DNA from: Halomonas sp.
GTDB taxonomy: Bacteria > Pseudomonadota > Gammaproteobacteria > Pseudomonadales > Halomonadaceae
Assembly (NCBI RefSeq): GCF_017515565.1
Contig: NZ_JAFWFN010000084.1
Span: forward strand, 1-64,000
DNA: 64,000 nt
Direction of reading: 5' to 3'
Below, piece after piece: positions 31,426 to 31,711 of this stretch (positions are counted from its first letter, which is position 1; every line of letters begins with the position of its first letter). The position numbers were made by a program, and so were the translations under genes. The notes beneath the pieces are model-generated. The model saw nothing but the letters and a program-made list of their open reading frames with translations, was not told the origin of the DNA and searched no databases.

Positions 31426-31471
31426 AGCAAGGGCACCCTGAAATGCGCAGCGCTGGTGCATTTTGCTTGCT
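31426..31471. promoter_or_regulatory. Nested inverted repeats upstream of a sigma-54 promoter
   Basis: AGCAAG (31426-31431) / CTTGCT (31466-31471) encloses AAATGC (31441-31446) / GCATTT (31458-31463). GGCACC and GGTGCA half-sites also lie inside. It is centred about 95 bases before the -24 box, so it could be an activator site; it could also fold as a 3' hairpin for the dehydrogenase mRNA. Confidence 0.4.
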
Positions 31472-31545: not shown

Positions 31546-31561
31546 TGGCACACGGCTCGCA
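31546..31561 (+). promoter_or_regulatory. Sigma-54 (-24/-12) promoter of a small RNA
   Basis: TGGCACACGGCTCGCA has the full -24 TGGCAC, and GC at 31559-31560 exactly ten bases after GG (31547-31548). It lies in an AT-rich region with no protein start nearby; the expected transcription start is near 31572. Confidence 0.7.
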
Positions 31562-31571
31562 ATGTATTAAG

Positions 31572-31711
31572 CAAGATGCAAATGAATAGAGTAGATATAT
31601 GCAAGATGCCTCTCTCCCTTCTTTGCTACATCGCACCAGCCTTTGCTGGTAAGCGATACATAAAGTGAGCTGGCGTGCTCCACCTGGGTCCCCTTCGGGG
31701 GACTCTTTTTT
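31572..31711 (+). ncRNA. Candidate sigma-54-dependent small RNA
   Basis: About 140 bases between a -24/-12 promoter and a strong intrinsic terminator, with no protein frame. The 5' part has a nine-base direct repeat GCAAGATGC (31571-31579 and 31601-31609). Next is a pyrimidine-rich single-stranded stretch CCTCTCTCCCTTCTTT (31609-31624), which could pair with Shine-Dalgarno sequences. Then a hairpin ATCGC-ACCAGC-CTTT-GCTGGT-AA-GCGAT (31630-31657), a short GAGC/GCTC stem, and the terminator. It is reminiscent of sigma-54-controlled Hfq-linked RNAs such as CrcZ, but no shared sequence was recognised. Alternatively it is an attenuated leader of ompW. Confidence 0.6.
31686..31711 (+). terminator. 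Intrinsic terminator with UUCG tetraloop
   Basis: GTCCCC-TTCG-GGGGAC (31688-31703), extendable by a G-T and a G-C pair, is followed by TCTTTTTTA. One of the strongest terminators in the window, and it has no upstream protein gene of its own. Confidence 0.9.

Follow-up and report, generated by a model that had tools for sequence, protein, structure and literature searches.

A conserved locus of Halomonas for a probable small RNA with signs of NtrC/sigma-54 control and complementarity to the leader of urtB

The interval 31546-31711 of the window (the whole stretch of 64,000 nucleotides of Halomonas sp. DNA that was analysed) very probably encodes a conserved small RNA (sRNA) of Halomonas-type bacteria. 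The features of the locus are collected in Table 1. The GG (31547-48) and GC (31559-60) of the -24/-12 box are separated by ten bases, the predicted RNA start (31572) lies about 12 bases 3' of this box, and the terminator consists of a stem of eight pairs (31686-31705) and a T-run that reaches 31711. Both the sigma-54-type box and the UUCG-loop terminator are present as the initial annotation had described them. Single elements of this kind are easily matched by chance. The promoter pattern TGGCACNNNNNTYGC has 29 matches in the genome of this strain and 27 for its reversed control, so the box taken alone says little, and terminator-like sites between 29000 and 34000 number seven against 5.4 expected. 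Because such chance matches prove little, conservation decides: a TGGCAC/T...TCGC box is found 5' of the RNA at all 49 intact loci of the genus that were read, and the helices of the RNA covary. Loss of the promoter in close relatives, which had been named as an argument against the RNA, is thus not seen at any of these intact loci.

Table 1. Features of the sRNA locus, with positions in the window
Feature	Position	Strand	Basis or remark
NtrC-type site TGCGCAGCGCTGGTGCA	31444..31460	+	10/12 consensus positions in the window
Sigma-54 -24/-12 promoter TGGCACACGGCTCGC	31546..31560	+	kept in 49/49 intact genus loci
Small RNA (very probable), about 140 nt	31572..31711	+	start estimated from spacing to the -12 box
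SL1, 5' stem-loop with internal CCC	31579..31625	+	31579-31591 pairs with 31612-31625
SL2, stem-loop (AUCGC...GCGAU)	31630..31657	+	4/5 pairs changed on both sides
3' module GUGAGCUGGCGUGCUCC, hairpin GAGC-UGGCGU-GCUC	31665..31681	+	invariant in alignments
Proposed seed UGGCGUGCUCC	31671-31681	+	complementary to urtB leaders
Intrinsic terminator, UUCG loop and U-run	31686..31711	+	sequence, alignment, covariation

The family-wide search that the initial annotation had proposed was carried out at the DNA level; of the 275 family genomes, 222 have a match, although some of these matches, mainly in other genera, consist of the 3' module alone. A covariance model of the 3' module (R1) matches 77 of the 82 genus genomes. 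When the GTDB genome set was searched for an exact match of 19 bases, at least 119 loci were returned; the genera titled among the 80 loci listed are Halomonas, Vreelandella, Chromohalobacter, Salinicola, Modicisalibacter and others, and for 80 of these 80 we take the titled genera to belong to Halomonadaceae. When 390 genomes of the order were searched, 161 had a hit at E <= 0.01, and no hit outside the family exceeded 35.7 bits, against 74.6 for the window. Seven weak hits were inspected as possible homologues outside the family and all resembled plain terminators, as did one weak hit in another genus of the family (L089). The stand-alone gene was counted in 72 genus genomes, of which 49 intact loci and one truncated locus were read directly and the remaining 22 were assigned by module score. 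At the truncated locus (L119, genome G231) the promoter and the 5' domain seem to have been lost; what is left, close to the end of a contig and behind the dehydrogenase gene, is the last part and a module in which one base is changed.

The upstream dehydrogenase gene, a putative member of an aco operon, is found at 18 of 30 genus loci, and ompW is found near the sRNA at 27 of 30. A link between the RNA and either neighbour is unsupported, because the sRNA persists at loci where these genes were not found nearby. At 8 of the 12 other-genus loci listed, the -24 box stands only 55-60 bases before the module, so that a minimal form of the RNA there seems to comprise SL2, the module and the terminator. 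Other genera (L033, L040, L049, L032, L051) also have a second class of RNA with a gene of its own, in which the same 3' module is joined to a different 5' part and the box is unusual, as in TGGCATGGATTTCGAATAG; these RNAs are possible paralogues.

The initial annotation did not recognize the sequence, and no family in Rfam 15 fits it: the window has no match at or above a gathering threshold, and the top sub-threshold hit by E-value, STnc100, scores 18.0 bits where 47 are needed (E 0.11). As far as these searches go, the sRNA appears to represent a new family.

None of 200 shuffles folds as well as the predicted RNA (z -3.3). Covariation was counted on an alignment of 44 of the 48 distinct RNAs, from which the structure had itself been drawn; L124, L125 and L130, which have a different 5' part, and L021, which has a long insertion, were dropped beforehand. 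In the full structure (SL1, SL2, module hairpin and terminator), 98.0% of cells are paired and 12 of 25 pairs are changed on both sides; the covariation score was attained in none of 500 shuffles. Of the five covariation measures, one, the number of further pair types, was equalled in 89 of 500 shuffles; the other measures drop strongly when the partners are slid, and RNAalifold predicts the same helices. SL1 is formed by two helices with 11 pairs, six of them changed on both sides (e.g., CG:28/UA:15 and AU:26/GC:17). The hairpin that had looked conserved in the first reading is SL2, and its helix does covary. Two other elements of that reading are present in the sequence with a different meaning. 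The pyrimidine-rich segment CTCTCTCCCTTCTTTGC (31610-31626), taken to be available for pairing with Shine-Dalgarno sequences, is the 3' arm of the covarying SL1 and not a free anti-Shine-Dalgarno stretch. The nine-base direct repeat GCAAGATGC (31571-31579 and 31601-31609) is not conserved; its 5' copy occurs in one of the 44 aligned rows and is absent from the other 43. The module hairpin never varies and therefore lies outside the reach of the covariation test.

The window RNA does contain a frame of 30 codons, MQMNRVDICKMPLSLLCYIAPAFAGKRYIK, which raises the possibility of a small protein gene or a dual-function RNA. The frame is open over at least 25 codons in just 15 of the 49 loci and is shorter or absent in the other 34; a small-protein gene was accordingly set aside as a very improbable reading. 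The conservation, the covariation and the anatomy of the promoter support the original proposal of a regulatory RNA of the sigma-54 type that lacks a conserved protein frame.

The 3' module is invariant in all 44 rows of the alignment used for covariation (A2) and in all 29 rows of another (A1), whose rows had been found through the module. The sequence GUGAGCUGGCGUGCUCC recurs shortly 3' of the stop codon of an ammonium transporter gene, again with a terminator behind it. In the genus, the module stands behind an AmtB-like C-terminus at all 23 loci read for this, which comprise 18 of the 45 second copies in genomes with two matches and the sole copies of five genomes. The exact 17-mer is present at 18 of these 23 loci; the amtB copy deviates from it at five, and also in the genome of the window, where the diverged copy GTGAGCAGGCTTGCTCC follows a gene matched at 689.7 bits by TIGR03644 (ammonium transporter, marine subtype). 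In this copy (L053, C77:32316), the loop reads AGGCUU for UGGCGU and the stem is kept. An arrangement of the module behind an amtB-like C-terminus, as judged by the look of that C-terminus, was also seen in genera g5, g8, g12, g15, g17 and g21.

The sRNA looks as if it is switched on by the nitrogen-starvation regulator NtrC. Upstream sites were scored against TGCACY-N5-RGTGCA, which we take to be the NtrC consensus. The best NtrC-type site reaches at least 9 of 12 positions at 46 of the 49 loci, against 18.6% of dinucleotide shuffles, and at least 10 of 12 at 25 loci, against 2.9%; at 37 of 49 loci the distance from its start to the TGG in the downstream -24 box is 100-103 bases. At single loci the site is often unremarkable (reached by up to 146 of 200 shuffles), and the case for NtrC therefore rests on the set as a whole and on the fixed position. 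The P-II/amtB operon of the same genome has a box, TGGCACGGTATGCGC, and two NtrC-like sites 32 bases apart, in the same layout as the sRNA promoter; the protein encoded first resembles P-II, with 175 bits, slightly below the curated cut-off of 181. The 3' module is thus present in two transcripts whose promoters are of the NtrC/sigma-54 type. A TGGCGCA-N4/5-TTGC box and sites that look NtrC-like on reading the sequence were seen upstream of urtA in 7 of 7 genomes. NtrC itself is encoded in the genome (752 bits), as is Hfq.

The inverted repeats upstream of the promoter had been proposed to be the enhancer of an RNA of the CrcZ type. That they may serve as an enhancer fits their resemblance to an NtrC site; the assignment to the CrcZ type is not supported. 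The Halomonas sRNA resembles CrcZ as a sigma-54-driven stand-alone sRNA, and these two properties are what a sponge sequestering Hfq/Crc under the control of CbrB would have in its favor. However, AANAANAA, which we take to be the Hfq/Crc motif present in several copies in CrcZ, does not occur in the window RNA, the upstream site is NtrC-like, and the most conserved part is a module that is common to amtB 3'UTRs and complementary to urtB leaders. A CrcZ-type sponge is, on these grounds, barely conceivable. CrcZ of Pseudomonas is under CbrA/B control (PMC9308961).

A candidate target was sought with the complement of the 17-mer, allowing up to three mismatches, in ten genus genomes, and with that of the 11-mer in the genome of the window. 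Among the matches listed, the only place hit in more than three genomes is the intergenic region between urtA and urtB (7 of 10). UrtB was verified with TIGR03409 (415.8 bits), and a partial UrtA, whose frame continues upstream, matches TIGR03407 (261.3 bits). In the genome of the window, the site pattern GGRGCACGCYR has 18 other matches, and only the one between urtA and urtB lies outside an open frame of at least 80 codons. UrtB is present in 75 of the 82 genus genomes, and all 75 leaders were read. A gap-free 11-nt complement to UGGCGUGCUCC, with G.U allowed, occurs in 58 of them, against 0 of 75 on the antisense strand and 2 of 75 reversed leaders; for a 9-nt complement the counts are 64, 2 and 2 of 75, and a looser core of the site is present in 67. 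A 9-nt match of UUCUUUGCU in 54 of the 75 leaders was judged to be loose G.U matching and was dropped.

Among the 58 leaders the site takes the forms GGAGCACGCTA (45), GGGGCACGCCA (7), GGAGCACGCTG (3), GGGGCACGCTA (2) and GGAGCACGCCA (1). The variable positions are A/G, C/U and A/G, all of which still pair with the unchanged sRNA through G.U. The site forms a conserved island in a variable leader: each of its positions holds 1.4-2.0 bits, whereas most of the 25 preceding positions hold roughly 0.1-0.6, a contrast that is partly due to the choice of the 58 leaders by match. The median distance from the end of the site to the AUG of urtB is 34 nt. In many leaders (L218-L267, L324-L348) a hairpin of variable sequence and similar form ends directly at the proposed site, and it may protect the 3' end of urtA.

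The sRNA and urtB also occur together. Over the 82 genomes, both are present in 72, urtB only in three, the sRNA only in none and neither in seven (Fisher p about 3e-8, ignoring phylogeny); in this count, 22 of the 72 are assigned by score, some genomes are incomplete and the truncated locus of G231 is taken as present. Since relatives are not independent, such counts overstate the number of events. Two of the seven genomes that lack both are just 71-79% complete, and the joint absence may follow genome reduction.

The site is not universal. The full site is absent from 17 of the 75 genus leaders and even the loose core from eight, and seven of these eight genomes have the sRNA gene (G272, G256, G270, G232, G200, G260, G268); in the first three, a longer intergenic insert replaces the site. 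A repeat-like insert of the GTAGCGCCCATGGATGGG type was observed between urtA and urtB at L221, L229, L230, L288, L291, L305 and L308, and the site is missing from the carriers that belong to the genus (L221, L229, L230). In other genera, the full 11-mer occurs in none of 30 urtB leaders and the loose core in 15 (in L314 only through a loose alternative). RNAduplex energies prove little by themselves, because those of 10 of 50 genus leaders and 17 of 30 other leaders are reached by more than 5 of 100 shuffles and the lowest of all belongs to L313, a leader with no site. The RNAduplex run used wrong start codons for L248, L254 and L255, and both it and the folding run used a wrongly parsed leader L296. 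The sRNA might have other main targets under the same NtrC/sigma-54 control, the complementarity to urtB being coincidental or reflecting a cis element of urt. The absence of the full site from other genera would agree with this, as would the scope of the search, which covered one 17-mer in ten genomes and one 11-mer in a single genome. We nevertheless consider it unlikely, given that the urt site alone, among the matches listed, was hit in more than three of the ten genomes, and given its conservation in an otherwise variable leader.

These observations are best explained by a stand-alone nitrogen-starvation sRNA under NtrC/sigma-54 control that pairs with the urtB mRNA and sets the level of UrtB relative to UrtA, a reading that we hold to be probable. 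When nitrogen is limiting, NtrC would turn on urt and the P-II/amtB operon along with the sRNA. Sigma-54 RNA polymerase would transcribe the sRNA as far as its own terminator; the RNA would act in trans, and its seed in the 3' module would pair with GGRGCACGCYR between urtA and urtB. Hfq, whose gene is present, may assist; the RNA ends in a U-run. Pairing would change the output of UrtB, and probably of UrtCDE, relative to that of UrtA. The direction of this effect is most likely repression, which is favored because GlnZ, an sRNA of Enterobacteriaceae, represses sucA and because its repression of a transporter was proposed to act as feedback.

The same sRNA could instead activate urtB, by freeing the start region or by breaking a terminator-like hairpin between urtA and urtB (GGGAG-CACGCUAC-CUCCC-UUUUUU). 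In several leaders, L223 among them, reading by eye places the site in the 5' arm and loop of a potential hairpin with U6 behind it. The distance to the AUG also suits activation, and some leaders are predicted to fold with the site paired to the urtB start; such pairing of the leader motif in cis, if it occurs, also weighs against the preferred reading. However, many leaders show no U-run hairpin, the predicted folds favor the upstream hairpin over it, and in L249-L253 the site abuts an AAAGGA ribosome-binding site, which predicts repression. Because only some leaders have this hairpin, a terminator/antitermination switch was not adopted as a general feature of the urtB leader. Activation, the main rival reading, seems to us rather doubtful.

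Repression of urtB by the NtrC/sigma-54 sRNA, the preferred reading, can be compared with two known systems. NrsZ of Pseudomonas is described in reviews as an NtrB/C- and RpoN-dependent RNA of about 226 nt that is processed and targets rhlA, and its gene sits in the spacer adjoining ntrC (PMC9308961, PMC8395346); it has the conserved motif ACAGGCAG (PMC9308961). The Halomonas sRNA shares with it a stand-alone gene, a 5' stem-loop and, as judged from the DNA, a sigma-54 promoter and putative NtrC-type control. Unlike NrsZ, it adjoins ompW, with the NtrC gene on another contig (G000:C48), and ACAGGCAG is found in none of the 49 RNAs; membership of the NrsZ family was rejected on account of this motif. 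GlnZ of Enterobacteriaceae is an NtrC-induced sRNA released from the glnA 3'UTR, which represses sucA by pairing in the sdhB-sucA intergenic region far upstream of the start; it also regulates glnP of a glutamine transporter, and this is the repression proposed as feedback (PMC9731577). The GlnZ system and that of Halomonas both have a nitrogen-regulated mRNA with an sRNA module in its 3'UTR and an intergenic pairing site, a predicted one in Halomonas, upstream of a start codon. The Halomonas sRNA is set apart from GlnZ by its host mRNA, amtB, by a stand-alone gene that shares the module and by the proposed target, urtB. Release from a glnA 3'UTR does not apply to it; the gene stands alone with its own promoter, and the other copies that were read lie behind amtB. 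The sRNA would thus work like NrsZ in its control and like GlnZ in its logic, and it is a member of neither, because ACAGGCAG is absent and both locus and host mRNA differ.

More tentatively, and with somewhat less than even confidence, we suggest that the regulator has two sources, the dedicated sRNA gene and the 3' end of the amtB mRNA, both acting on the mRNA of the urea transporter. If this is true, a hierarchy of nitrogen sources would be set from RNA to RNA inside one regulon, possibly through pairing of hairpin with hairpin in the intergenic region of an operon.

Among the papers listed in searches of an open-licence library, which leaves subscription journals mostly uncovered, no account of the sRNA, of its proposed link to the urea transporter or of the amtB 3' module was found. 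Some Halomonadaceae are industrial hosts for bioplastic production, typically under nitrogen limitation, and synthetic sRNAs have been used in H. bluephagenesis (PMC13101641). The locus described here would offer a clean case in which one seed module is common to an sRNA with its own gene and to the 3'UTR of an mRNA under the same control. For the Halomonadaceae it would provide a candidate for a native sRNA that responds to nitrogen, together with a named target and a seed that can be tested.
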